Assembly (NCBI RefSeq): GCF_000688455.1
Contig: NZ_JIAL01000001.1
Coordinates: 775,001-839,000 of the forward strand
Length of the DNA: 64,000 nucleotides
Reading direction: 5' to 3'
Source of the DNA: Pseudacidobacterium ailaaui
GTDB taxonomy: Bacteria; Acidobacteriota; Terriglobia; Terriglobales; Acidobacteriaceae
In this document: positions 27,598 to 43,391 of the stretch, piece by piece
Layout: every line of letters begins with the position of its first letter
How positions within the stretch are numbered: the first letter of the stretch is position 1
Notes under the pieces: generated by a model
What the model was told of the DNA's origin: nothing
The model's input: the letters and a program-made list of their open reading frames with translations, nothing else
Database searches by the model: none
Program-made: the position numbers and the translations under genes

Positions 27598-29658
27598 CTA
27601 CCCGAGTTCTGGGAAAGCTGTGATGCGTAATTTGGCCGCAGCATAAGGGACGAGCGTAATCTGCTGCTCCGGCTCGGTGCTTTTTACAGGGCTTTCCGGG
27701 ACCGGATTGGCGACGTTGTCTTCGCCTACCCATGAGGGCACCTGCCGGGCCTTGACCTGCAACCTGACCGGCGCTCCGTCTTTGCGAAACGGAGAGCTGG
27801 TGACATTGCCCTCCACCGTAGCGACGGATCCGGAAATATTTTCGGGGTTAATTGCGAGAGCATAGTTCCACTCTGAGGTGGGATAGACCTGCCAGTCCGC
27901 AGTCATGCCACGTGTGCGCAGTTTGAGCCAGTCCTCACCAATGCTGTAGGAAAAGACCAGCGGCCCGCGCTCCAGACTCACCGAGTTGTGATATCCGCGA
28001 GACGCGCGCGTGGTCATGGGGAAAAGGACTTCCACCTGGTCTCCCTTGCTCCAGGTCCGTTCAATCCGGGCAAAGGTTCCCGGCCGCGGGTTGCCGTCCA
28101 CGGGCCTTCCATTCACTTGAATGCTCGTATTCTCTGCCCAGGATGGAATGCGCAGCAACAGCGGAAATGCGAGCGGTGATGCCGGATGAATGATCAGGCG
28201 CACCGTCTCGCGGAATGGATACTCGGTCTGCTGCTGCACATGAACAGGCGTGTTCCGGATGATCGTGTGAACTTCACAGGGAGCATACGCGGTGGCTGCA
28301 AGTCCATCGTCATTAGAGAGCATGAAGAGGCTCGCCGTAAATTTTGGCCATCCTTGACCAAAATTTGCGGTGCAGCAGCCGAAATTCGGGTCCAACCCGT
28401 AGAGGTTTGACTCCGGGCCGTCCGTGGTCCAGGGTTCTTTTTGCAGGCTTACGGTAATCTGATTGGGCTGCTGATTGTATTGGTGTGCCCACATATCATC
28501 GGTAAAGGCGCCAGGAAGTGCATTGAATGCTATCTTTTCCAGACGGTCTCCAAGCGATGCTTCTCCAGTAATCGCAAGAGACTGCTCCAGAGAAAACATG
28601 GCTTCAACGACGGTGCACAGCTCGGTGCCCTGAGACGGATTGCGTCCGGCCAGGTGCTCGTCGGCGGAAAAGATGCCGTTGGGCAAGCCATGATAACGGT
28701 CCAGCTCTTGGAGCATGTGAAAGATGGCGCTCCGGTCGGTCGGGTCCTGCGAGAGGAGCCATCGGACAGGCGACATTTTGATGGCCATTGCAACGTTGAC
28801 GCCATGTGTCTGCATCGCCCGGTCGGTGAGCGGAGAGTTTGGCGTCAGACCGATGGCCTCCGGCGTAGTGCGCTGCGTATATTTGAAGTCTGCAAACTCT
28901 GCCTGCCAGTCAAAGCCCTGTTGCTGTAGCAGTCGAAAGAGATGAAGCAGTTTGGCATCTCCGGTGCGGTTGTAGAGCCAGATGACAGCAAGCGCTTCAT
29001 CATGCCAGCGATACTTCCCCCAGTCGCGGAGCGGGCGCGAAGGCATGGTCTCGCTCTGGTAGGCAAAGTATCTTGATAACACCGGAACCACCCGCGGATC
29101 GCCGGAGGCTTCCTGGTATTGAGTAAGGACCTTTGCCATCACCATACGCGGCCACCAATCATTGTTGGACTTTGGCCCAATCATCCCGTCAGATGCAGTA
29201 TTTTCGAGTGTCCAGTCCAGAAACTTTTGTGCCTTCGCTTTGAGCCGCGTGTCCTCCAGCAGGTAAGCGAGCGGCACAAGTCCATCCAGATAGTAAGGGC
29301 CGCGCTCCCAGGATTCTCCTGTTCCGCCGAGCCAACCGCTGTTGGGGCCAACATCGGGCCACGTTTCGTCAAGATGGCCTGCGAGTCCGTGGGCTTGGAC
29401 CAAAAGCTGATCACGCAGCCATCCTGCAGGACGAATGGACCCGAGCGGCAAGGCGTAAAAAGCATTCTGCGCCAGGGGCGCACGGTTCTTGAGCGGCGCA
29501 GTGCTGTTCCAGGCCCTCTGCCCTTCAATCCGGGTGCCGGCCCCAAAAGTGTTCTTTGAAATCGAGGCCATACCTGCTGCCCCAAGAAAAGCGAGAAAAC
29601 GGCGGCGGGAAAAATGGGAAGACCCAGGAAAAGACATAGGTTGCATCGATCTCCGCAA
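27598..29658 (-). CDS. Tat-exported GH127-type beta-L-arabinofuranosidase-like enzyme
   Basis: A 686-residue glycosidase of the DUF1680 family (GH127 or the related GH146), whose known members release beta-L-arabinofuranose from plant glycans. The N-terminus carries a Tat signal, SRRRFLAFLGAAG at about residues 17-29, so the folded enzyme is exported to the periplasm or beyond. The zinc-thiolate site known from HypBA1 (Glu-Cys3) is complete: E346 and C348 in GTELCTVVEAM, and C428-C429 in NFGCCTANFGQGWPKF; C429 corresponds to the nucleophile. Other family blocks include RPAGWLRDQL near residue 76 and ERGPYYLDGLVPLA. The (alpha/alpha)6 barrel is followed by beta domains after about residue 470. 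A shared 19-bp motif lies 37 bases upstream. Confidence 0.88.
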   Translation of the reverse strand: MRRSMQPMSFPGSSHFSRRRFLAFLGAAGMASISKNTFGAGTRIEGQRAWNSTAPLKNRAPLAQNAFYALPLGSIRPAGWLRDQLLVQAHGLAGHLDETWPDVGPNSGWLGGTGESWERGPYYLDGLVPLAYLLEDTRLKAKAQKFLDWTLENTASDGMIGPKSNNDWWPRMVMAKVLTQYQEASGDPRVVPVLSRYFAYQSETMPSRPLRDWGKYRWHDEALAVIWLYNRTGDAKLLHLFRLLQQQGFDWQAEFADFKYTQRTTPEAIGLTPNSPLTDRAMQTHGVNVAMAIKMSPVRWLLSQDPTDRSAIFHMLQELDRYHGLPNGIFSADEHLAGRNPSQGTELCTVVEAMFSLEQSLAITGEASLGDRLEKIAFNALPGAFTDDMWAHQYNQQPNQITVSLQKEPWTTDGPESNLYGLDPNFGCCTANFGQGWPKFTASLFMLSNDDGLAATAYAPCEVHTIIRNTPVHVQQQTEYPFRETVRLIIHPASPLAFPLLLRIPSWAENTSIQVNGRPVDGNPRPGTFARIERTWSKGDQVEVLFPMTTRASRGYHNSVSLERGPLVFSYSIGEDWLKLRTRGMTADWQVYPTSEWNYALAINPENISGSVATVEGNVTSSPFRKDGAPVRLQVKARQVPSWVGEDNVANPVPESPVKSTEPEQQITLVPYAAAKLRITAFPELG

Positions 29659-29694
29659 AAACTCGTTTTATCTTAATCATTTCACCCGCGGCGT

Positions 29695-29713
29695 GCATGG
29701 TATGAATGGTCTA
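29695..29713. promoter_or_regulatory. Shared 19-bp motif, copy C, upstream of the GH127-type gene
   Basis: GCATGGTATGAATGGTCTA on the + strand matches 15 of 19 bases of copy B (35843-35861). It lies 37 bases before the leftward GH127-type start. It is the weakest of the three copies, but the core TATGAATGG is exact. Confidence 0.5.
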
Positions 29714-29821
29714 TGTGTCCGTAGGCATTTGCGAAGACAGGTAGATCTTCTGCAAAGGTCCTTCCTTCCCTTCATTCAAAGCAGCATTCACTGGATTTGC
29801 ATCTCTGTATCGAGGGCATGT

Positions 29822-32800
29822 TTAAAACTCCACTCTTGCTCCGACCTGTCCCTGACGAGGAATCTGTGTACTGGTAGATGTCCCGAATACAGATCCACTG
29901 GCAGCATCAGAATTGACGCCATTGAGATTGACGCGATTGAACAAGTTGAATAAGTCTACACGCAGGTCTAGTTTTACTTTTTCAGTAATATTAGTGATTT
30001 TCTTGAAGGTGGCGTCTACTTGAGCAAAACCGGGGTTACGGAATTGGTTCAGCTGCTCATTTCCTTCCTGCCCTATTTGAGGAAATGAGAATGGGCCACA
30101 TCCATCAAGGTTTGTCCCGGAGCAGTGCGGAAAGACACCCTGTATATAGCTTTTGCGGCTCGTAGAGATGTGATACGAAGTGACATTCGGGAAGTCCCCA
30201 TTATCACCATCTGCATTAAAGTCTCCTGAATCAGGCTGATAAATGAGGTTGCCGCTTGCGTCCTTAGCAACATCCAGAGGAGCACTTGAGAATACACTGA
30301 AGGGCTCTCCCGATTGCAGCACGGTAAGCGAAGATATCTCCCATCCTGAGGCCACCCTTCCCAGGAGTCCATGCCCACCATGCAAGGATGGCAACTGATA
30401 GCTCCATCCCAGCGAAAACCGGTTGGGTACATCCCAGGGAGATGGGCCATAAAACCTGTCCAACGAATACTCAATTGGATAGTTTTCGGAATTGTCCTTG
30501 GAAACAGAACGGGTATATGACGCGGTTACAAATCCTCTCTGCGCGAAACGTCCTTTGAGCGCAAGAATCAGACCAGAGTAGTTGGACCACGGTCCGTTAA
30601 AGGTATAGTTAATCGCGCCAAAGCTGGAATTCAACCTTGTTTGCGTGCCAACACAAGTTGCCTGTTGCCCATTCGGTGGAGAAACTGGAGTACAGGTAAG
30701 GTGCTGCAGCAAATCGCCTTGATAGACGTTAACGTCTCCGGAGAAAGCATTGCCGAACGAATTGCCGCCGCCGTATTGCAAATCGCCGGAATGCTGCCCA
30801 ACATACCGCACACCAGCCACCATGTTGTTTGTGATCTGACGTTCCACCCCCACAGACCAGGTTTCAGTGTAGGGAGATTTCAGGTTACCGTCTACGCCGC
30901 CAACAGCAATCTGTTGCCCTGGGATACCCCCTTTGGCATCGAGTGGAGTGCCCTGAAATGCGGGATAGGGAAATCCAAAGGGATAAGTGTTTGATGTACC
31001 GTATCCAAAGATGGGGGGAGCCGTTGAGCCGTTATTAAAGAATGTAGGCAGAACAAATCCAGGCGGATTCCCTTTCAGGTTATTTTCCGCATTGCCGAGT
31101 GTGACCCAATCACGATAAATACCAAATCCTCCGCGCACTACCCATTTGCCGCTGCCGGTAGGGTCCCATGCCACGCCTGCACGAGGGCTGAAGATCCAGT
31201 TCATGTCCTGGTTATAGACATGGTTCTGCTGGCGGTTGACCCCATTGGCCACGCGCTCCGCCATAGTTGAGCCAGAGCCCAAATGGAAATTGGCAAGAGG
31301 CGTACCAGCCGTTGGATAAGGATTTCCATAATTGTCGTACCGAAGGCCATAGTTGATTGTGAGACGGTGAGTTACGCGCCAGGTGTCCTGAGCAAAAATG
31401 CCAAAGGTGCTTTGGGCATACTCATATTGACCAGGCATCGGCTTGCCTGTAACCGGATTGTAGGAAAGACTGCTCTCGGAATAAGGGTGGTCATTGATCA
31501 GGTCAATCATGCTGTTGTACTGAAAATTTGGCTGAGCATAGGCCGGAGCAAAGAGGGCCAAATCATCTCCGTGCCAGCCTTCCACTCCCACACTGATGGC
31601 ATGTTCTCCCTGAACCCGTGTGAGAACATCGCGCCAGTGATAATTGTGTTCAGCATATTGGGAATCGGCAAAACCAACTCCCCAACCAACGCCAAGATTG
31701 TTCACATTCACAACTGGAACAGAAAACAAACCTTTTTGCGCATTCGTGGATTGCAGATAGTTATAGCCAAAAAATGCCTGGTTCAGCGTGTTTGCTGAGA
31801 ATGTGTGCGTTTCGCTGCCCTGTAGAGCGATTACCGATGAAGGGCTTGATGTATTAAACGCTGGACGGACTGAAGGGCCGCCCGAAGTACTCGTATCGCG
31901 AAAGAGTGTTCCGTAAATCCGGTCTTTGCTGAAGTATTTATCTATGCGGATGTTGTACTGTTTTGCATTCTCATAGCTCGAAGAATTGAAGACACCATTG
32001 TCAAAGACAGGCAAGGAGCAGGGAATGTTGTCCGTACTAGATGTACCGCATCCGGTATTATTGGCCAGGTTTTGTGGGCCGAACGCGTCCTGCGCGGTAG
32101 CGGCCACGCCCGTTGTTGTTGCAGCGCTTGGAGGATACTTTGCCATTAGCTGCACCTCGGGAGACTTCGGACGTACCTGCTGCGCAAAAGAGACAAAGGC
32201 CGGGTCTTCGTAGGTAAGCACACTGTTTCCGTTGGAAGTAAGGGCCAGATATGGCTCAATCGAGAAGAAGAAAAAGAACTGCTTTTTAGGAATGACTGGG
32301 CCGCCAATTCCAAATGACATGTTCGTGGTGTGGAAGGGCTGGATCTTAACACCTGCGGGGAAAAATTCGCCTTTGGCGTTTAACCCCTGATAGGTATAGT
32401 AGACGCTGCCAAAGCCATGATATTGGTCGGTACCGGATTTAGTGGTCATCACCGTCTGCATAGAGCTTGTCTTGTTAAAGTCCACAGTGTACGTGTTGGT
32501 CTGGACGCTGATTTCAGAAAGCGCATCTGCGTTAGGGACCAGTGTCAGCACGCCCGGATTCACATCAATGTTGATGTCCAAGCCATCAAGAATGTACTGG
32601 TTGCCATTGTCTCCACGACCGTTCGCGCTGTAGTCAGCATTTTCTGTAAAGAAATTGTTATAGCCTGCAGCACCAAGCCCGGTAACACCCGGAGTGAGAG
32701 TAATGAGCGAGGTGGGATTCCTTGCGGCCAATGGCAGCGACTGGATCGCCTGTGTATCAATTGTCAGTTGGTTCCGGCTGTCTGAAGTATCCAGCAACGG

Positions 32801-33160
32801 TGCTTGCGCAGTCACTGAAACCGTAGAGGCAACTTGTCCAACGGCAAGCGTCAGCGAGATCTCGCGGTTCTCCGCAGTTTCTAGTGTAAAGTCCACTTTG
32901 GATGTTGTGAATCCAGATGCTGAAGCAGAGATTTCATAATGCCCTGGAGCGATACTCAAAAAGCGATATGCACCTGTATCATCGGACAACTTTACCGCAG
33001 TCACCTGCGTATCAACGTTGATTAATGTAACTGTTGCCTTTGGAATCGCAGCGCCTTTTGAATCCAGCACATTCCCTTGTACGCTTGAAGAGAATTGTGC
33101 AAACGCTTGCATGGCTGCCAACAAAATGCATGAAATTAGCAGACCTGAAAATTTACGCAT
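29822..33160 (-). CDS. Oar-like TonB-dependent outer-membrane receptor
   Basis: A 1112-residue outer-membrane receptor of the type that Acidobacteria have in many copies, probably importing glycan fragments with TonB energy. ATG 33160 has AGGAGG nine bases before it; a frame extension to 33220 is rejected. A signal peptide (about 1-22) precedes a carboxypeptidase-regulatory beta-sandwich (about 25-110, QGNVLDSKGAAIPKATV). The plug domain follows (about 120-230) and then the large beta-barrel, which ends in the outer-membrane C-terminal signature RVEF with terminal Phe. It lies between two glycosidase genes transcribed the same way, and a shared motif sits 121 bases upstream. The ligand is inferred from the neighbours. 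Confidence 0.9.
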   Translation of the reverse strand: MRKFSGLLISCILLAAMQAFAQFSSSVQGNVLDSKGAAIPKATVTLINVDTQVTAVKLSDDTGAYRFLSIAPGHYEISASASGFTTSKVDFTLETAENREISLTLAVGQVASTVSVTAQAPLLDTSDSRNQLTIDTQAIQSLPLAARNPTSLITLTPGVTGLGAAGYNNFFTENADYSANGRGDNGNQYILDGLDINIDVNPGVLTLVPNADALSEISVQTNTYTVDFNKTSSMQTVMTTKSGTDQYHGFGSVYYTYQGLNAKGEFFPAGVKIQPFHTTNMSFGIGGPVIPKKQFFFFFSIEPYLALTSNGNSVLTYEDPAFVSFAQQVRPKSPEVQLMAKYPPSAATTTGVAATAQDAFGPQNLANNTGCGTSSTDNIPCSLPVFDNGVFNSSSYENAKQYNIRIDKYFSKDRIYGTLFRDTSTSGGPSVRPAFNTSSPSSVIALQGSETHTFSANTLNQAFFGYNYLQSTNAQKGLFSVPVVNVNNLGVGWGVGFADSQYAEHNYHWRDVLTRVQGEHAISVGVEGWHGDDLALFAPAYAQPNFQYNSMIDLINDHPYSESSLSYNPVTGKPMPGQYEYAQSTFGIFAQDTWRVTHRLTINYGLRYDNYGNPYPTAGTPLANFHLGSGSTMAERVANGVNRQQNHVYNQDMNWIFSPRAGVAWDPTGSGKWVVRGGFGIYRDWVTLGNAENNLKGNPPGFVLPTFFNNGSTAPPIFGYGTSNTYPFGFPYPAFQGTPLDAKGGIPGQQIAVGGVDGNLKSPYTETWSVGVERQITNNMVAGVRYVGQHSGDLQYGGGNSFGNAFSGDVNVYQGDLLQHLTCTPVSPPNGQQATCVGTQTRLNSSFGAINYTFNGPWSNYSGLILALKGRFAQRGFVTASYTRSVSKDNSENYPIEYSLDRFYGPSPWDVPNRFSLGWSYQLPSLHGGHGLLGRVASGWEISSLTVLQSGEPFSVFSSAPLDVAKDASGNLIYQPDSGDFNADGDNGDFPNVTSYHISTSRKSYIQGVFPHCSGTNLDGCGPFSFPQIGQEGNEQLNQFRNPGFAQVDATFKKITNITEKVKLDLRVDLFNLFNRVNLNGVNSDAASGSVFGTSTSTQIPRQGQVGARVEF

Positions 33161-33280
33161 GGTCCGGGCCTCCTGAAAAGGGCAGCAGAGAAATTCGTGA
33201 TTCACTTGCCTCTCTGCCATGAATTTAGCGAAGGTAACTATTCATCCATATACCTTGCATGAACAAGTCCAACCCCTGCC

Positions 33281-33299
33281 GTATAGTACAAATGGACTG
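33281..33299. promoter_or_regulatory. Shared 19-bp motif, copy A, upstream of the TonB receptor gene
   Basis: GTATAGTACAAATGGACTG, 17 of 19 bases as in copy B. It lies 121 bases before the receptor start and just after the stop of the upstream glycosidase gene, so it probably marks a separate promoter for the receptor. Confidence 0.6.
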
Positions 33300-33301
33300 G
33301 C

Positions 33302-35725
33302 CTAAGAAAGCCTGGAAAAGCCCCCGAGCTTAACCTTGTATCGGGTATAGTTCCTGGCCTTAAACCGCCACCGTCCATTCTCCTTTTCTACCGGCTGCGG
33401 CCGTCCATCTATTTCCACAACAGAAAGAACACTGGTCCCCTGGGGCAGTTCGATTTCTGCGCATAGATCATGACCGTGTACAAATTTGAATTGAATGCTG
33501 ATCCACTGCCGGGCATATGGCAAGCGCGAGATTCCGTACTCCTTTCCGCTTGCGGCAAGCAGCGGGCTAAACCCGGGGTTGAGAATCACCTGATCCACTG
33601 CATCGGTTTCACGAAAACCAATCAAATTGCGAATGATATGGGCAGGCATCACTGCTCCCCAGCCATACACCTCTCCACCAAAAGCACCATGCCCACCCCA
33701 GATTTCGCAGCTGGTTCCCGGCCACCCAAGACGCGGATTGTTGCCGCCTGTTTGAAGCACACGACGGTCCATACTTGTGTAAATACGCTCGCAGATATTT
33801 TCCACTGTTTGGGATGCAAGTTGGCTGTCCCCGGAAGACCACGCGGACTCTAGAAACGGCAGAACAAAGGATGACCAATTCAGCGCGTTGTCGGCTGACG
33901 ATTCCGGGATTTGTACTTGTGCCAGCATGTCTTCGTACATTTTGCGAAGTGTAGGCAAAAGAAGCTTTTTCTGGTTGTCTGTGGCGATGCCGCAAAATGC
34001 GGGGGCAGCCTGTGAGGGGTCGCGTTCCGGACCATTCACCAACTTCATCGAACGGGTGTCGAAGTCATGAAACCAGTCACCTTGCCATAACTGTTGTGTC
34101 TTTTCTGCGAAATCTTGCTGGATTTGCCGCCATTCCGGAATGCTCTTCTGATCGGAGACGAGTTTCGCAAAACGGGCCAGAATGGCGCCGGCCTGGGATG
34201 CGGCTGCCTGCAGTTCCACCAAGCGTAGGAACTCCACTAATTCAGCTCCGGTAGGCTGCTGGATCTGAAAGCGTTTGGAAGTATCCATGCCCGTTTCCCA
34301 ACTGCACTTACCAACAATGAAGCCGCCGAAATCCGTCCGATGTTTAAGCGTCCAGCGCAGAAGAGCACTTAATTTTGGATAAAGTTGGCGTAGCCACGCG
34401 AGATCGCGCGTACGGTTATAGATGGATTCCGCACAGAAGAATGGAAAGCACCACGAAATGGACGTGCCACATTCGGAGCCATCAGCCGCCACCATGTTCA
34501 TCACACCGTCTTCGCGCATGCAAGGAATGTTGTCCTCGACGGCGTCAAGAAATTGCCCTAGAAAGACCTCTTTTGCTATGGCCGGATTGGCATAGCTCAA
34601 GGCCCACATATCTATCGAAGTTTCGGCCAGCACATTGCGCGGTGCCTGAATCTGCATCGCATCCCACGGATGCTTGTAGACCCCGATAGGCCGCCGCACC
34701 ATGGTCCGCAGTGTTTCAAAATCATAGACCCATCCATGCTGCCAGTGCTTGGGCCAGTCTCCAGTCAATTTTGGCGCGCCACTCCAGAAAGATGCGTCTT
34801 CTGCGAGCCTTTCGCGCATTACTGTTTTCGATTGCGGTAGCGAAGCATGCACATGCTCTAGCACGGCTGAAAGGTTTGCGCCGCGTGCCATTAGAACAAA
34901 GAATTCTTTCTTTTCATTTGGCCCCAGAGAAAGCTCATAGCAGATGCCGCCAAACAGTGGCTGGGTAGAATAGGCAAGTTTTTCCCCGTTTTTAGGGGTA
35001 GGACCCAACCATGTTCTGCGGTCGGTTTTATTCGCGGAAAAGAAATGCCCTGTGTTGCGAATATTTGCAGTGATGGCAAAAACTGTCCCAGCGGCGAACG
35101 ACCGCGTCCAAAGCGTATCTTTTTCTTGCTCGAAACCTCCAGCGATGCCATCTCCACCCCACCACTGGCTTCCTCCCAGCTGGCAGGCGTGCATGGCGAG
35201 CACCCCAACTGATTTTGCATGACCCGATTGCTCAGTTATTTTTACGTGCGATGCAAGGACATCTTCATTCACAAGAAAGAACCGGCTCTCCACTGCAACA
35301 CGATCTTCTTCAAAGCGGTACTGAAGAACATTCTTGCTATGGTGAGGGGAGGTCAGTTGCCCTTGACGAAAATCGTCTCCATCCATCAATACTCGGTCAC
35401 CAATTCTGAAGCCCAGCGCTAGTTCTGCAACATAGACCCCATTCCGGTGATAGTCGAAGTATCCTCCTGGACCAGCCGGATAATACAGACCAAATCCAAT
35501 TCCTGACAACGAGCGCAGAATACCGCTTTGGTGCATGTCCCATGTGTGCCACGGATTGTCCAAGTATCCAAAAGGCGTGTAATCGCTGAGAGGAAAGCCA
35601 TCGCCTGCACTGCGCGATGCAATACTTGTTATATCTGGCGACGGAATATCTGCAGAGAAAGCCTGAGTTTTAAGTGCGGCTGATGCAGCGGCAAGCACAG
35701 AAACAAATTCGCGACGGTTCAGCAT
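33302..35725 (-). CDS. Tat-exported six-hairpin glycosidase-like protein, family unclear
   Basis: An 807-residue protein with a Tat-like signal (LNRREFVSVLAAASAAL, residues 2-18). After an N-terminal beta-sandwich (about 40-300), the C-terminal half looks like an (alpha/alpha)6 barrel. SWETGMDTSKRF (residues 475-486) resembles the ESGMDNS block of clan GH-G enzymes (GH37, GH63), whose Asp, here D481, is the catalytic acid; CEIWGGHGAFGGEVYGWGA near the C-terminus may supply the base. I cannot place it in a named CAZy family, so substrate is unknown; gene context with the GH127-type enzyme suggests an arabinose-containing glycan. A shared motif lies 118 bases upstream, nearly the same spacing as for the receptor gene. 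Confidence 0.72.
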   Translation of the reverse strand: MLNRREFVSVLAAASAALKTQAFSADIPSPDITSIASRSAGDGFPLSDYTPFGYLDNPWHTWDMHQSGILRSLSGIGFGLYYPAGPGGYFDYHRNGVYVAELALGFRIGDRVLMDGDDFRQGQLTSPHHSKNVLQYRFEEDRVAVESRFFLVNEDVLASHVKITEQSGHAKSVGVLAMHACQLGGSQWWGGDGIAGGFEQEKDTLWTRSFAAGTVFAITANIRNTGHFFSANKTDRRTWLGPTPKNGEKLAYSTQPLFGGICYELSLGPNEKKEFFVLMARGANLSAVLEHVHASLPQSKTVMRERLAEDASFWSGAPKLTGDWPKHWQHGWVYDFETLRTMVRRPIGVYKHPWDAMQIQAPRNVLAETSIDMWALSYANPAIAKEVFLGQFLDAVEDNIPCMREDGVMNMVAADGSECGTSISWCFPFFCAESIYNRTRDLAWLRQLYPKLSALLRWTLKHRTDFGGFIVGKCSWETGMDTSKRFQIQQPTGAELVEFLRLVELQAAASQAGAILARFAKLVSDQKSIPEWRQIQQDFAEKTQQLWQGDWFHDFDTRSMKLVNGPERDPSQAAPAFCGIATDNQKKLLLPTLRKMYEDMLAQVQIPESSADNALNWSSFVLPFLESAWSSGDSQLASQTVENICERIYTSMDRRVLQTGGNNPRLGWPGTSCEIWGGHGAFGGEVYGWGAVMPAHIIRNLIGFRETDAVDQVILNPGFSPLLAASGKEYGISRLPYARQWISIQFKFVHGHDLCAEIELPQGTSVLSVVEIDGRPQPVEKENGRWRFKARNYTRYKVKLGGFSRLS

Positions 35726-35842
35726 TCAGAGAGAACTCCTTTGGGCAGGCGTATATGACGAGGATCATTCTTGCAAAATGATAGACAAGGTGACGATATG
35801 TGCAGGTGAATCAAGAACGCCTGGGCCAGTCAGACCAAAGTT

Positions 35843-35861
35843 GTATAGTATGAATGGACTG
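35843..35861. promoter_or_regulatory. Shared 19-bp motif, copy B, between the divergent operons
   Basis: GTATAGTATGAATGGACTG. It lies 118 bases before the leftward glycosidase start and 36 bases before the rightward binding-protein start, so a factor bound here could control both directions and thus its own operon. Confidence 0.6.
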
Positions 35862-35896
35862 TTCAAGCTTGCCATGTAAAGTAGATCCTGAATGTG

Positions 35897-36847
35897 ATGG
35901 CAATGGCCTGTGCGCGCAGAATTTCTGCTGCTCTATTTCTGCTTCTTGTGATTGGCTGCCGGTCTGGCCCTCCCGTCATTGCAGTGATTCCCCGCACAAC
36001 GGGCATGTCATTGTGGGAGCCAGAACACGCCGGCGCGGAAGCTGCAGCCAGCGCACTCGGCATGAAAATTTACTGGAACGCTCCTACACGCGAAGATGAT
36101 GTGCAAGGCCAGATTGCGTTGGTAGAAAAAATTATTGATGAAAAGTATGCAGGCCTGATTCTCGCGCCGGACCAATCGCTCGCCTTAATGACTCCGGTGC
36201 GGCGCGCTATTTCCAGAGGCATTCCTACTGTGGTGATTGGTTCTGCGCTTCCGTTAGAACCAAGTGGCAGGCTGTCATACATCGTCAGCGATGATGAAGT
36301 GGCCGGACGCATGGCTGCATCGCGCATCGGCACGATTCTGCATGGCCAGGGGACCGTGGCTATCATTGGCATCAATCCGGATATCGCGGGAGTGCTGGAC
36401 CGCGTCGGCGCATTTGAAGCAACACTGGCAGAGCAATTCCCCGGGATACATGTGGCCGAAAAACGACTGGGATCATTCAATGTTCCTTATGAGCAGCAAA
36501 TCACGGAAGAAGTGCTCGTGGCGAATCCCAACCTGAACGCCATTCTTGCCGTGACTGCGGATGCAACCCGGGGGGCGTATTCCGCGTTGAGCGAATTGCA
36601 CCAGACCAATACTGTAAAACTCGTGGGCTGCGACCAGGATTTGCTTGCACCACTTGTGACAGGAGAGATGGATTCTGTCATTGCGGAAAATACTTATGAA
36701 ATGGGCCGCCGCGCAGTGGAATGGATTGCTCTTGAGCGGCAGGGTAAACCAGTGCCAAGATTTCAGAAAATTGCTCCTCATCTGGTGACGAAAGACAATT
36801 TGAATTCCACAGATGTCCGTCGGATATTAGGACTTATTACGCAATGA
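35897..36847 (+). CDS. Periplasmic sugar-binding lipoprotein (LacI/ribose-binding fold)
   Basis: A 316-residue periplasmic binding protein of the ribose/galactose-binding type (Peripla_BP_4). A signal peptide with lipobox VIGC gives a lipid-anchored mature form. Family blocks are clear: VIAVIPRTTGMSLWEPEHAG, YAGLILAPDQ, TVVIGSAL, the YIVSDDEVAGRMAAS hinge and LVGCDQD. Such proteins normally feed an ABC importer, but no permease or ATPase gene is near; the next gene, overlapping by four bases (ATGA), encodes a sensor kinase. I therefore infer it works as the sugar-sensing subunit of that kinase. GTG 35894, ATG 35897 and ATG 35903 are all possible starts; none has a strong ribosome site. Confidence 0.88.
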   Translation: MAMACARRISAALFLLLVIGCRSGPPVIAVIPRTTGMSLWEPEHAGAEAAASALGMKIYWNAPTREDDVQGQIALVEKIIDEKYAGLILAPDQSLALMTPVRRAISRGIPTVVIGSALPLEPSGRLSYIVSDDEVAGRMAASRIGTILHGQGTVAIIGINPDIAGVLDRVGAFEATLAEQFPGIHVAEKRLGSFNVPYEQQITEEVLVANPNLNAILAVTADATRGAYSALSELHQTNTVKLVGCDQDLLAPLVTGEMDSVIAENTYEMGRRAVEWIALERQGKPVPRFQKIAPHLVTKDNLNSTDVRRILGLITQ

Positions 36848-38982
36848 AACGTCGTTCGCAAGTATGGAAATGGCTGGCAATCTCTTTGTCTAGCCTTGCC
36901 GTGCTTGCCGGGACCGTCTTTCTTTTCCTCCTTTACCTGCATAGCCCGAAACATGGACTCCCCTATCACGATTCTTTTGCTGAGGGGAAGGCCGACGAGT
37001 GGGAAGCATTTGGCGGCACATGGGCAGTCTATGACAAGGGCATACGCAACGACTCAGACGAGCGTGGCGCCAAACTGATGACAGGTTCTCCTTACTGGAA
37101 TGACTATCTTCTGGAAGCTGACGTGATGTTGCTTGGCGAGGACGGCGATGCGGGACTCATCATCCGTGCGAGCGATGAGGAGCTGGGGGTGGATTCCTAT
37201 AGCGGCTATTATGCCGGACTGCGCACGCGGGACAACATGTTAACGCTGGGTCGCGCAAGTCACGGCTGGCTTGAATATCAGAATGTGCCAATACCTGGTG
37301 GTGTGCAGGCGTTCCGCTGGTATCACCTGAAATTACTTGCTTACGGATGCCGGATTGTTGCTTCAGCCACATTCCCGGTGGGCGGCGGTGAGGTAACAAC
37401 GGCCGCAATGAGTGAAAAAAACTGTCTTATGTCCGGGCGTATTGGCCTGCGGTCTTATTCTGCCGGAGGGATCTGGCGTAATGTCTATGTGCGGCTGGCT
37501 ACGGAGGAGGACCTCCTCTCCATGCTAGGGACGCTGGCTGGCCACCCGTCTTCCAGCGAACGTGCAGCGGGAAATGGAATCACGATCTTCGGTTCTGGTT
37601 CTCTCCCTTCGCATGTCTACCAGCAGGCACGACCAGCCAGGAATGTTCAGTCCATCAGTAGTCTACGTCTGGTATCAAGCCCACAACCGATGACCTCTAC
37701 CATTCGCGGCGTAGTCTCGCTTACAGCACCGTTATATATACAGGATTCAACTGGCGGCATTGCTGTAGAGGCAGCATCAAGCCCTCCACTAAAAGTCGGC
37801 GATGAGATCGAGGCCACTGGGACTGTGCGGTCTGGAGCATTTCATTCCACACTGGAAAATGCAAGGGTACAGCTTCTATGGGCGCGGACACCGGTGCAGC
37901 CTGTTTCTGTCACAGTTTCGCAAGCCGCCACTGGAGCATTTGCTGCAATGTTCATTGAAGTGGAAGCGCACTTGCGCAGTAAAAGGCGGGATGCTCAAGA
38001 TACTCTGATTCTGGACCTTGAAGACGGCCAGCAGTCTTTTCGAGCGGTCGTCAATGGAGGGCGCGGAGATTTACTCTTCAATAAACTGAAACAGGGCAGT
38101 CTTGTGCGCTTGCGTGGAGTGTGTGTTGTGGATTCTGAATATACGCACAATCTCACTCCCTTTGTTCTCTTGCTGCGTTCCACAGATGACATTGGTATTG
38201 TGGCAGGACCGCCCTGGTGGAATACAAAACATGTTATAGCCATCGGATTCGTTCTTTTTCTGTTGCTGTTCATTAGTTACTTTATCTACAGCCGGATCCA
38301 GCAATGGCGATTACACGCCATCCTTGAAGAAAGGGAAATGCTGGCCCACGAAATGCACGACACTCTGGCGCAGAGTTTCGCTGGACTAGGTTTTCAGCTC
38401 CAGGCAATACGTAACCGTATGCCGGAAGACATGCCTGCCATCCACAAGCAGCTTGATCTTGCCTGTGATTTAGTGCGACACAGTCACGAAGAGGCACGGC
38501 GCGACATTATGATGCTGCACAGCGAATCTTTCAAACAGATGGAACTGACCCATATGCTAGAGCAATGTGCAAAGAAAATGCTGGAGGGCGGACCGGTTGA
38601 GATCAAGATATTACAGTCCGGAGACCCCCGCCCCGTTCCGTTGCGTATCAATGACACTTTGTTCCGCATCGGACAAGAAGCATTGGCCAATGCCGTACGT
38701 CACGCCATGCCAACATGCATCTCCATTGTTACGGTTTATGCCAGAGACTCCGTTCAAATGATTATTGAAGACGATGGTACTGGGTATGTTGCAGACAATG
38801 AAAAACGGGGCTTTGGGGTACGCGGAATGAAAAGAAGGGCCGCAGCCATTTCTGCTGCGATTGAAATTGTTGCTTTGCCTGATAAAGGAACACGGGTTTG
38901 TGTAACCGCCCCGTTGCCTGCACGCATGGCTTTCCATGTACCAATGCTTCTTAAAGGAAACCGCTCTCATGAACAAACCTGA
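36844..38982 (+). CDS. Membrane histidine kinase with LamG-like and OB-like sensor regions
   Basis: A 712-residue sensor kinase of the HisKA_3 (NarX/LytS-like) type. An N-terminal membrane helix (about 8-32) is followed by a large extracytoplasmic part: a concanavalin/LamG-like domain (about 40-220; DSFAEGKADEWEAFGGTW and the DVMLLGEDGDAGLIIR strand pattern), then two regions with OB-fold character (about 285-355, SLTAPLYIQDSTGGIAVE; and about 370-440). A second membrane helix lies at about 462-482. The cytoplasmic kinase has its phosphoacceptor H505 in LAHEMHDTLAQ and a C-terminal HATPase with EDDGTGY and RGFGVRGM. It overlaps the binding-protein gene by four bases and the regulator gene by fourteen, so all three are made together. 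Confidence 0.9.
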   Translation: MKRRSQVWKWLAISLSSLAVLAGTVFLFLLYLHSPKHGLPYHDSFAEGKADEWEAFGGTWAVYDKGIRNDSDERGAKLMTGSPYWNDYLLEADVMLLGEDGDAGLIIRASDEELGVDSYSGYYAGLRTRDNMLTLGRASHGWLEYQNVPIPGGVQAFRWYHLKLLAYGCRIVASATFPVGGGEVTTAAMSEKNCLMSGRIGLRSYSAGGIWRNVYVRLATEEDLLSMLGTLAGHPSSSERAAGNGITIFGSGSLPSHVYQQARPARNVQSISSLRLVSSPQPMTSTIRGVVSLTAPLYIQDSTGGIAVEAASSPPLKVGDEIEATGTVRSGAFHSTLENARVQLLWARTPVQPVSVTVSQAATGAFAAMFIEVEAHLRSKRRDAQDTLILDLEDGQQSFRAVVNGGRGDLLFNKLKQGSLVRLRGVCVVDSEYTHNLTPFVLLLRSTDDIGIVAGPPWWNTKHVIAIGFVLFLLLFISYFIYSRIQQWRLHAILEEREMLAHEMHDTLAQSFAGLGFQLQAIRNRMPEDMPAIHKQLDLACDLVRHSHEEARRDIMMLHSESFKQMELTHMLEQCAKKMLEGGPVEIKILQSGDPRPVPLRINDTLFRIGQEALANAVRHAMPTCISIVTVYARDSVQMIIEDDGTGYVADNEKRGFGVRGMKRRAAAISAAIEIVALPDKGTRVCVTAPLPARMAFHVPMLLKGNRSHEQT

Positions 38983-39610
38983 AAACAAGGCCATCCATAT
39001 CCTGATTGTTGATGACCATCCCGTAGTCCAGGCTGGCCTGGCAAGTATGCTTGCCACACATAAGGGCATTGAAGTAATCGGCTCGGCATCCAGCGGCGAA
39101 GAAGCATTGGCCATGGTGCAGCAGAATGTGCCCGACATCATTTTGCTTGACCTTCGCATGCCAGGAATGAGCGGGATTGATACTCTCTGTGCACTGAAGA
39201 AAATCAAGACAACGGCACGGACGATTATTCTCACCAGTTTTGAGACAGACGAGAACATTTACCGTGCAATTCAGGCCGGGGCTTGCGGATATCTGCTTAA
39301 AGACACATCGCAAAACCAGATGTTGGAAGCAATCGCCACCGTTCACGCGGGGAAAAAATATATTCCACGGCCCATTGCCGCCCGCCTTGCGGAACGGATG
39401 CTGCGCTCAGACCTGACGGCCCGCGAGCTGGAGATCCTGGAAATGCTCGCCAAAGGGCTGACGAACAAGCAGATTGGTCATGTCCTCGTCATCAGCGAAA
39501 ACACCGTCCGCAATCATGTAAACAGCATCATGGAAAAGCTGGAAGTCTCTGACCGAACAGAGGCAGTTGCTGTAGCAATCCAGCAGGGAATCATCCAAAT
39601 TGTCAGTTGA
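38969..39610 (+). CDS. NarL/LuxR-type response regulator
   Basis: A 213-residue DNA-binding response regulator, partner of the preceding kinase. The receiver domain (about 8-125) has the acidic pair VDDH, phosphoacceptor D61 in LLDLRMPGMSG and the Lys in GYLLKD. The C-terminal LuxR-type helix-turn-helix is LTARELEILEMLAKGLTNKQIGHVLVISENTVRNHV. I chose ATG 38969, which has AAAGGA about eleven bases upstream; ATG 38936 is also in frame. The start lies inside the kinase gene, a sign of strict coupling. The most likely targets are the three genes carrying the shared motif plus its own operon; this is inferred. Confidence 0.94.
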   Translation: MNKPENKAIHILIVDDHPVVQAGLASMLATHKGIEVIGSASSGEEALAMVQQNVPDIILLDLRMPGMSGIDTLCALKKIKTTARTIILTSFETDENIYRAIQAGACGYLLKDTSQNQMLEAIATVHAGKKYIPRPIAARLAERMLRSDLTARELEILEMLAKGLTNKQIGHVLVISENTVRNHVNSIMEKLEVSDRTEAVAVAIQQGIIQIVS

Positions 39611-39679
39611 TTGAAAGACAACGTTGTGGTGCAGGCTGCCTGGAAAATTTCCCCGATTGGCGCCAATTACGGGACGAAA

Positions 39680-39857
39680 CGGCGTGCCGAGATCGACGTA
39701 TTGCTTCCGGCATACGTACGCCACGCTTCGCTTGCAGGAAGGTGTAGACGTGTACTTCCTTGCCGAACAGATGGGAACTTCGATCCATATGATCGAGGAA
39801 CACTATGGGCCTGTGAACACCATCGCCCACGCCGACCGTGTACGCAGGGCATGGCGG
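39680..39857 (+). pseudogene. Remnant of a tyrosine recombinase (integrase C-terminus)
   Basis: In the frame through 39693, about 58 residues match the end of a phage-type integrase: STYCFRHTYATL (catalytic Arg and His), LQEGVDVYFLAEQMG and IEEHYGPVNT with the likely nucleophile Tyr. No N-terminal or core-binding part is present upstream, where the response regulator ends at 39610. It is therefore a fragment and marks one side of a decayed mobile island. Confidence 0.75.
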
Positions 39858-40281
39858 GATGGGAGTTGCCGCACCCGGAAGTGGACGTTACCAGGGCCAA
39901 AGCATCGAAGGCGGCGGAGATGCACGATAAATCCAAGCGAGGTCAGCACCGCAGGGCAGGCTGACCGCGAATCTCCCGAAGCCGTCTTTGGCCGGATCCG
40001 CTGGCGGAGGCTGGCGCAGGGAGGTAATCATTTCCATGTCCGATCTAGACGCTACTCATATATTGGTTCTGATTTACCGCTGCCCCCCGGGGCGTTCTTA
40101 GCGGCAAATCTCCGCGCAGGAGCCGCCACTGGCGGCTGTTCTTCGTGCGCTTTGTGCTTGCTGGATGGCAGATAATCCGCACGCCGTAAGGAAATGAGTG
40201 TTCAATTCTCTTTGCCTGCACCAAACTTCCTTCGGCTTGGCTTACGTCCAACTAACTTGCGCTTACCGCGCTTTGCTTGAA
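39858..40281. other. Gene-poor stretch in the mobile island
   Basis: I see no convincing gene here. On the - strand, bases 40210-40281 could encode a Lys/Arg-rich continuation of the small gene that ends at 40282, but in another frame. The rest looks like decayed sequence with no clear RNA gene or terminator. Confidence 0.4.
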
Positions 40282-41015: not shown

Positions 41016-43391
41016 TTATTCGTGCTCTGTGATCTTCCGTTCCAGCGCTTCGTAGGCCGTTCTAAGCGGCCCCGTGAAGACGTTATTCGCCGCATAGAAC
41101 TTCACAGCTTCCACCGCGTTTTCGCGGATGTGGTAGCCCGACCCTACTCCGGAGATCTCGTGCTCTTCAAATATCTTCGATTTTAGTGCGCTTATCACGT
41201 CGTCTCGGTGCCGCGAGGTTGCAATTGTGCCCCGAGTGAGGTGCCTCTCTGCAACCGACTTAAGTCCGAGACCGCCCTTTATGACAAACTTGTCTATCAC
41301 AGAGCTAATATCCCTTCGCAGATCTTCCGCGGAATAGCGTTTCTTGCCTTCCCGGGTCTTGACAACGCTGAACATTGTGTCCGCATCTGGGTCAAGGCTG
41401 CAGTTTTCCAGTCTCGCACTCCCCATGCCCTCACACTGGTTCTGTGCGTTTCCGCCGATAAATTCGCACTGCACAAACGCCGATTGGGCAGTAAACTTGC
41501 AATTCACCCAGGTAACTCGCTCAAAGCGACAATTACGGAACTCAGTGCCACTGAAATCGTAGTGCGCGATCACGCCAGTAAACGTGATCCCAAAGATTGT
41601 AGCTCCGCCCCCAAGCTTCCGAAGCAATTCTGTTCGCTCTGTTCTCGGGCTTCCTGCCCGAACCGTACGGTCTACCGCCCCAAGGACGATCAGCCCGGCC
41701 AATCTGCTGCCTTCTCCCCAAATTCTGCCGACGAGACCTCCCCTCTCAGACATTGCCGAGATCAACAAGCCAAGCCGATCGAGTGGGATCTGGCTGGCAG
41801 CCTCCACTTCAGCCAGCTGAACGATCATCTCCGCAACGTCTTGCATAGCTCCTGGGGAGAGATGAACCTTCGCGACAAAATCCCTAATATTGCTGCCCGG
41901 TAAGTGGACGATATAGTCAGCAAGGAGGAGTGTCCATATTTGCATTTGCCTAAAGGACCACGATTCGGATGCGCGCTCTCTACTGAGCAATGGGTGACTC
42001 ACGAGTTTGTCGATTGTTCCTTTCATCAAGGCGCTGCTGAGCGCCGGCTTGACGTAGGAAAGAATCAGCGAGAGTAGTTCTGTAGTGGGCTCGATCCCCA
42101 AGGCGATTTCGCAAGCGAATTGACGGAGCACCTCTAATTGCTCTTTTGCGGTAAAGGGCAGATCCTGTCGGACCTCCTCTCGCTGACACAATGCTTCCAA
42201 GAGCCATAACATCGCGCGTGCGGAGTCGTATCCTGGATGGGGGCTACTACCTCCGTGCATCGCTAGATCGGCGATGAGACTCAAGACAAAGCCACGGCCA
42301 ATCAGGTCGTTGTCACTCTGCCGCAAAACGTCGTATATCTGTAACGCCTTTTCGCACTGGGTTTCTTCGGCGATCCGTTGGTCGAAGTAGTTTTTCGCGT
42401 TTTCTCGATTGAAAGGGAGAATGGAGAAAACAAATGCGCCACGTTCTCGGACGAAATCCTCGACCTCGGCTAGGGGAAGATTTGAGTGCCAGAACGAAGT
42501 TCTAGATGTAATCACAATGCGGGTTCCTGTCGTTGCCGCGAGGTCTGCGAGGACCTCTAGAACGTCAAGAGGGGAAACCGAGCCTCGATTGTGAAGGATG
42601 TATTCGTCGAACCCGTCAAAGATGATCCGGAATATGTCTGCTTTTAACGTGGACCGAAGGAAGAGATCCTCATGTCCATCGAGCCAACCTATGGCCGCAC
42701 CAAAGTGCCTGAAGGAATGGGCAATCGTTTTTGGCAGGGAGCGTTGATCCTCTACCGATAAGCCCTGCCACTGGGACGAGTCGACCATGAGAGGAACTAC
42801 GCCGTGATTGCCTGTTGCCAGTTGCGAGACTAAATAGGTACTCATGTAGGTCTTGCCCTGCCCCGGCTCGGCCAGCACGATCCCGAGCCTCCCCGAACTC
42901 TCGACTGTTGACGGATCGACGAGAAAAGATAGGACGGGATTAGGCAGCCGAACCTGGAAGCCGGAGGGCGTTTCAATCCGGGGATTGATGTAGTCGACCG
43001 GCCGGAGGCTCTTCAGTCTATTTAGGTATGTGTCGATTTCTTCCCTGATAAAGGAAAGAATGTAATCTTTGGTGGTCCACATCGACGCCGCGCGGTCACG
43101 GAGGCGCAATTCCTCGACATTGTTCTGAATAAGGCGCTGTAATGAAGGTGGATAGACAATGTGGACGGGCTCTTCTGCTTGGGTATCCCGAAGCCCCGCG
43201 CGGATATCCTCCAGTGTGGCAGAGGACTGGAAATAAAGTACTCTAAATGGATATTGGGAGGTGTGGACCAGATGGACTCCGGGGTACATTGCCCATCGCC
43301 CCTCCTTCGCCTTAGTAGGCTTCATCTCTAGCCGAGTGGTCCTGCTTTGATTCACTAGCTCTGCGACATCCCGAAAGTCAATTATTGGCAT
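41016..43391 (-). CDS. NACHT-type STAND NTPase with pentapeptide-like repeats
   Basis: A 791-residue signal-transducing NTPase. Residues 1-145 are a domain I do not recognise (possible effector). The NTPase core has Walker A AEPGQGKTYM (174-183), Walker B IIFDGFDEY (256-264) with the NACHT-type D-G-x-D-E, and sensor I RIVITSRTSF (291-300), followed by a helical region to about 560. Residues 600-665 contain pentapeptide-like repeats (FSGTEFRNCRFERVTWVNCKF), and 690-791 look like a winged-helix or helical tail. Bacterial NACHT proteins often defend against phages by sensing infection and triggering the N-terminal effector. The gene is full length among broken mobile genes, which suggests selection to keep it. 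Membrane segments are absent. Confidence 0.82.
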   Translation of the reverse strand: MPIIDFRDVAELVNQSRTTRLEMKPTKAKEGRWAMYPGVHLVHTSQYPFRVLYFQSSATLEDIRAGLRDTQAEEPVHIVYPPSLQRLIQNNVEELRLRDRAASMWTTKDYILSFIREEIDTYLNRLKSLRPVDYINPRIETPSGFQVRLPNPVLSFLVDPSTVESSGRLGIVLAEPGQGKTYMSTYLVSQLATGNHGVVPLMVDSSQWQGLSVEDQRSLPKTIAHSFRHFGAAIGWLDGHEDLFLRSTLKADIFRIIFDGFDEYILHNRGSVSPLDVLEVLADLAATTGTRIVITSRTSFWHSNLPLAEVEDFVRERGAFVFSILPFNRENAKNYFDQRIAEETQCEKALQIYDVLRQSDNDLIGRGFVLSLIADLAMHGGSSPHPGYDSARAMLWLLEALCQREEVRQDLPFTAKEQLEVLRQFACEIALGIEPTTELLSLILSYVKPALSSALMKGTIDKLVSHPLLSRERASESWSFRQMQIWTLLLADYIVHLPGSNIRDFVAKVHLSPGAMQDVAEMIVQLAEVEAASQIPLDRLGLLISAMSERGGLVGRIWGEGSRLAGLIVLGAVDRTVRAGSPRTERTELLRKLGGGATIFGITFTGVIAHYDFSGTEFRNCRFERVTWVNCKFTAQSAFVQCEFIGGNAQNQCEGMGSARLENCSLDPDADTMFSVVKTREGKKRYSAEDLRRDISSVIDKFVIKGGLGLKSVAERHLTRGTIATSRHRDDVISALKSKIFEEHEISGVGSGYHIRENAVEAVKFYAANNVFTGPLRTAYEALERKITEHE

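Follow-up and report, generated by a model that had tools for sequence, protein, structure and literature searches.

Gene content of the locus

The analysed window is a stretch of 64,000 nucleotides from the Pseudacidobacterium ailaaui genome. The original prediction placed six genes in its middle part, and their positions were borne out, as were their types by Pfam. Together with three putative operator sites they are arranged as follows:

27598-29658, minus strand: GH127-like glycosidase, TAT-exported (PF07944, 43 bits; PF20736, 79 bits)
29698-29713, no strand assigned: putative operator O1, TGGTATGAATGGTCTA, upstream of the GH127 gene
29822-33220, minus strand: Oar-like TonB-dependent receptor (PF25183, 378 bits; CarboxypepD_reg, 62 bits)
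33284-33299, no strand assigned: putative operator O2, TAGTACAAATGGACTG, upstream of the Oar gene
33302-35725, minus strand: MGH1-like glycosidase, TAT-exported (PF22422, 43 bits)
35846-35861, no strand assigned: putative operator O3, TAGTATGAATGGACTG, between the MGH1-like gene and the sensor operon that diverges from it
35894-36847, plus strand: sugar-type solute-binding lipoprotein (SBP; Peripla_BP_4, by Pfam)
36844-38982, plus strand: histidine kinase (HisKA_3/HATPase, by Pfam)
38936-39610, plus strand: NarL/LuxR-family response regulator (receiver PF00072 and GerE helix-turn-helix PF00196)

The GH127-type reading frame opens with a TTG codon, and its likely ATG start is at position 29646. 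The GH127 catalytic Pfam model is matched over its C-terminal two thirds only, and the closest solved chains are the GH127 structures 4qjy and 5mqo. Residues E346-x-C348 and C428-C429, which align with these two chains and are unchanged across 19 sequences, form the Glu-x-Cys and Cys-Cys pairs that we take to be the zinc and nucleophile positions of GH127. The likely start of the Oar-like receptor is at 33160, where a signal peptide follows (MRKFSGLLISCILLAAMQAFAQ). Its PF25183 barrel match is strong, the Plug domain scores 20.1 bits, below the cut-off of 23.9, and the nearest named matches among plasmids come from Granulicella and Acidisarcina. Orthologues of the MGH1-like gene were found at locus L039 (72%) and at loci L114 and L119 (48-50%).

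The sensor operon, coding for the SBP, the kinase and the regulator, runs divergently from the enzyme genes. No ABC transporter genes adjoin the SBP gene. The SBP is encoded together with a kinase and a regulator and without an ABC transporter of its own, as expected of an SBP-kinase-regulator three-component system. Its solved relatives include XylFII (5xsd, E 9e-18) and the sensor-protein chain 2x7x. The kinase consists of a transmembrane segment, a 3keto-disac_hyd-like (laminin-G type) domain, an OB-like domain, a second transmembrane segment and the HisKA_3/HATPase module, with AHEMHDTLAQ as H-box, and the 3keto-disac_hyd domain is present in all 12 kinase homologues inspected. The recognition helix of the regulator reads ISENTVRNHVNSIMEKL. 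Genes for an inner-membrane sugar transporter, a sugar kinase or intracellular catabolism were not found within the locus. The earlier description of the locus as self-contained is therefore too strong, and import by Oar is itself an inferred step.

Downstream of the regulator, the frames at 39611-40175 encode what looks like the C-terminus of a tyrosine recombinase (TYCFRHTYATLRLQEGVDVYFLAEQMG), probably as a remnant; in the congener this place is taken by a TPR gene. Just past these integrase-like remnants, at 41016-43391, lies a gene for a protein with a NACHT domain that matches the antiphage protein EruA weakly and in part.

A conserved dyad at the promoters

The shared motif had been described as a 19-bp element, with copies at 33281, 35843 and 29695. 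The copies have the sequence that was noted, with matches of 17/19 and 15/19, but the element itself has to be corrected to a 16-bp dyad (29698-29713, 33284-33299 and 35846-35861). When the divergent promoters of orthologous loci in other family members were read, the operator proved to be an inverted repeat, TAGTYCA-NN-TGRACTA, of which the sites in the window are an asymmetric and weaker form, degraded to TRGTAYRAATGGWCTR. Scanning the genome with the 19-mer alone missed the third site, and this search was replaced by one with the dyad: with 3 mismatches allowed, only two matches to the 19-mer exist in the window, where 0.01 would be expected, and only two in the whole genome, the third copy having 4 mismatches. 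The 16-mer TRGTAYRAATGGWCTR, which covers all three copies, gave exactly 3 matches at up to 1 mismatch in the 3.69-Mb genome, all of them here. In the congener genome there were again exactly 3 matches at this threshold, located at the orthologous promoters, and the counterpart of O1 reads TAGTCCGAATGGTCTA. When a matrix was built from other genomes only, the window sites ranked second, fourth and fifth in the 64 kb, and they were the sole intergenic sites among its top ten.

In the defining set of nine loci, 18 sites were found at up to 2 mismatches, compared to 0.5 per shuffle. Over 11 genomes the consensus occurred at 15 places with up to 1 mismatch, 11 of which are within these loci. That the motif might be missing upstream of orthologues, or be placed at random, was examined with a held-out set of 20 further loci from a wider search, 19 of which were counted (330 kb). 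At up to 2 mismatches these contained 31 sites. A Markov model gave 0.95, the reversed pattern 2 and shuffled palindromes 2.2; 10 of the 31 dyads were exact, as opposed to none with the reversed pattern. The dyads are positioned before the SBP and receptor genes and before an enzyme gene, and in 16 of the 19 held-out loci a dyad is no more than 400 nt away from the SBP or receptor gene. This outcome speaks against both possibilities and supports the earlier reading. As to the three exceptions, L115 carries TAGGTCATATGACCCA at this place, and L114 and L119, both with an MGH1-like gene, have the O2 form of the window (TAGTACAAATG) before their Oar genes. The O3-type site before the SBP gene is kept in relatives. 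A promoter scan recognised no sigma-70 promoter near O3, therefore activation is not backed by spacing.

Co-occurrence of operator and sensor cassette

The kinase is present in 61 of 398 family genomes (E<=1e-130), and in a phylum-wide sample matches at E<=1e-80 were confined to this family. A scan of the genome for related loci returned distant kinases only. An Oar gene is found at most 5 kb away from 60 of the 68 SBP cassettes, in 39 of these divergent from and adjacent to the SBP gene, and GH127 or GH51 genes are near 41 of the 68. Other cassettes adjoin GH32, sulfatases or MR_MLE enzymes. Because the loci were found via the kinase, conservation of the cassette is partly selected; the operator and the neighbours lie outside this selection.

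GH127 orthologues linked to the sensor have the site in 18 of 18 cases. It is also present, about 93 nt upstream, before both of the unlinked orthologues in genomes that encode the sensor of this clade (G039 and G118), which are few cases, and in genomes without the kinase it was found before none of 11 GH127 orthologues. Genome G070, in which the only such system has a diverged regulator (locus L162), shows a 2-mismatch site before GH127, and this was counted against the association. All 68 loci were then considered, with helix groups set by eye and clade and a few residues mixed. Where the regulator helix is canonical, the generic dyad TRGTNCANNTGNACYA precedes SBP or Oar in 53 of 61 loci; where it is diverged, in 0 of 7. 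For the two main helix types, the generic site lies less than 400 nt before SBP or Oar in 44 of 48 loci, compared to a mean of 3.2 (maximum 8) for control palindromes. These associations, including those with unlinked targets, and the loss of the site with a diverged helix lend support to the regulon that had been predicted, as far as sequence comparison can do so.

Several further observations concern these loci. The diverged-helix cassettes (L048, L052, L054, L058, L143, L144 and L147) lack T-V-x-N-H and a recognisable operator, and several of their regulators have a longer C-terminus; one of these cassettes, L054, belongs to the same genome as the window. Kinase paralogues without an SBP, some of which adjoin GH92, are found beside Oar genes with GTCA-NN-TGAC dyads of their own (L066:12712-12751, L070:2758), L066 having two of these close together. 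An exact dyad, TAGTTCATTTGAACTA, lies about 190 nt before an unlinked and distantly related Oar-like gene (L076:1501-1516, G019:C8:482533), and genome G019 carries a sensor cassette without an adjacent Oar gene. Many loci, L041 (11130-13685) and L044 (15893-18460) among others, encode an exported protein of about 848 amino acids without a Pfam match, often directly behind the operator, which is possibly an undescribed glycosidase family. In 32 of the 68 loci, secreted TPR proteins of about 500 amino acids are encoded near the Oar gene (L051:10884-12392, L053:10424-11971 and others); it is conceivable that they are a functional stand-in for the TPR-rich SusD.

We consider it likely that the SBP, the kinase and the NarL-type regulator act together as a three-component system, and that this system controls the Oar-like receptor and the TAT-exported glycosidases via the dyad. 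Computed were the gene content, the operator, its conservation and position, and its co-occurrence with the sensor; regulator binding, activation rather than repression, the ligand and import by Oar are what we infer. In this mechanism, the membrane-anchored SBP would bind a small sugar, the likeliest candidate being an arabinose-type compound released by GH127, and present it to the periplasmic region of the kinase, which would then phosphorylate the regulator. A dimer of the latter is predicted to bind the 16-bp inverted repeat before the Oar gene, before the GH127 gene and in the divergent glycosidase/sensor promoter, and would thereby switch on uptake, degradation and its own sensor operon. 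An arabinose-type signal is our best guess because the GH127 zinc-site residues are unchanged in the 19 sequences. Going by the enzyme families alone, the substrate may be arabinan or arabinogalactan.

A rival reading is that the dyad belongs to a different regulator, such as a repressor of the LacI or GntR type whose gene lies elsewhere, and that the sensor cassette merely travels with the enzymes. Imperfect palindromes indeed fit many dimeric regulators, but when the neighbours of the loci were clustered, no second family of regulators turned up repeatedly, the sites vanish both with a diverged NarL helix and without the kinase, and related dyads go with related regulators, including the TAGGTCA-NN-TGACCTA sites of kinase loci that lack an SBP. 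Moreover, the base at position 5 of the dyad tracks one residue of the recognition helix (25/1 versus 3/15, strict residues), an association that is a lead only, since it amounts to about three independent contrasts. Taken together, this makes another regulator unlikely. That the repeats arose by chance, or are a common promoter element without a regulatory role, could be argued from there being just three copies in the window that differ by 2-4 bases, but this is contradicted by the held-out conservation, the genome-wide uniqueness and the dyad symmetry, and it is hardly credible.

Another reading leaves the dyad in place and changes the signal: the SBP, kinase and regulator would respond to a non-glycan cue such as the state of the envelope, and the receptor would import a non-glycan ligand. 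In its favour, an established part in glycan use is lacking here for Oar-like proteins, and a few paralogous cassettes adjoin sulfatases or MR_MLE enzymes. This has to be set against the GH127 or GH51 genes beside so many of the cassettes, the conserved operator before GH127 and an SBP of the sugar type, and we regard a non-glycan cue as improbable. On the preferred reading of a three-component glycan sensor, a gene set that recurs in one acidobacterial family of soil bacteria probably senses a plant sugar.

Significance and comparison with known systems

Acidobacteria are abundant in soil, and how they detect plant polymers and switch on their use is, to our knowledge, poorly described. Our search of a collection of open-access papers for acidobacterial polysaccharide utilization loci (PULs), Oar receptors and three-component systems found no matching system. 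A conserved operator that is tied to a sensor cassette makes regulons, and hence likely substrates, readable from sequence. It also opens a SusD-free counterpart of PULs to direct tests, and gives functional context to a protein family that is operator-controlled and without a Pfam match. A wider proposal, which we hold with about even confidence, is that these loci represent a class of acidobacterial glycan-use loci, parallel to PULs, under a single family of SBP-kinase-NarL cassettes, each with its own TRGTNCANNTGNACYA variant, and that operator position 5 can be predicted from one helix residue. If true, this code could be read to assign regulons and substrates.

The locus had been likened to a PUL without SusD and with a binding-protein/kinase sensor. 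This agrees with our finding that SusD, as covered by the model PF07980, is absent from 11 genomes, a Bacteroides control being positive. Since SusD is absent and the receptor is Oar-like, the locus is not a PUL by membership. The CUT loci of Xanthomonas also combine a TonB receptor and glycosidases without SusD, and have one-component regulators and inner-membrane transporters; we know of no SBP-kinase-NarL-type sensor cassette in them.

Like the PULs of Bacteroidetes (PMC3243724), the locus combines a TonB-type receptor in the outer membrane with exported glycosidases and a sensor-regulator that is linked and dedicated to it, but an Oar-type receptor takes the place of SusC, there is no SusD, and a short dyad operator is recognisable across genomes. 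Most hybrid sensors of Bacteroidetes have large beta-propeller periplasmic domains, and BT1754 senses fructose by a periplasmic-binding-protein fold (PMC3243724). In contrast to these hybrid two-component systems, the sensor described here is split over three proteins, with a separate NarL-type regulator and with laminin-G/OB-like sensor domains between the membrane helices of the kinase. Similar in layout are XylFII of Clostridium, which works with the kinase LytS (PMC6321045), and CuaDSR of Ruminiclostridium, a characterised three-component sugar sensor (PMC10384115), both of which, as here, combine an SBP, a kinase and a regulator, although the sensor domains of the kinase and the regulator family differ. 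In its Gram-positive host, CuaDSR regulates an ABC transporter together with a cytosolic phosphorylase (PMC10384115), whereas the predicted targets here are an outer-membrane receptor and exported enzymes. The sensor-operator locus may thus fill the role that PULs have in gut Bacteroides, with different parts.
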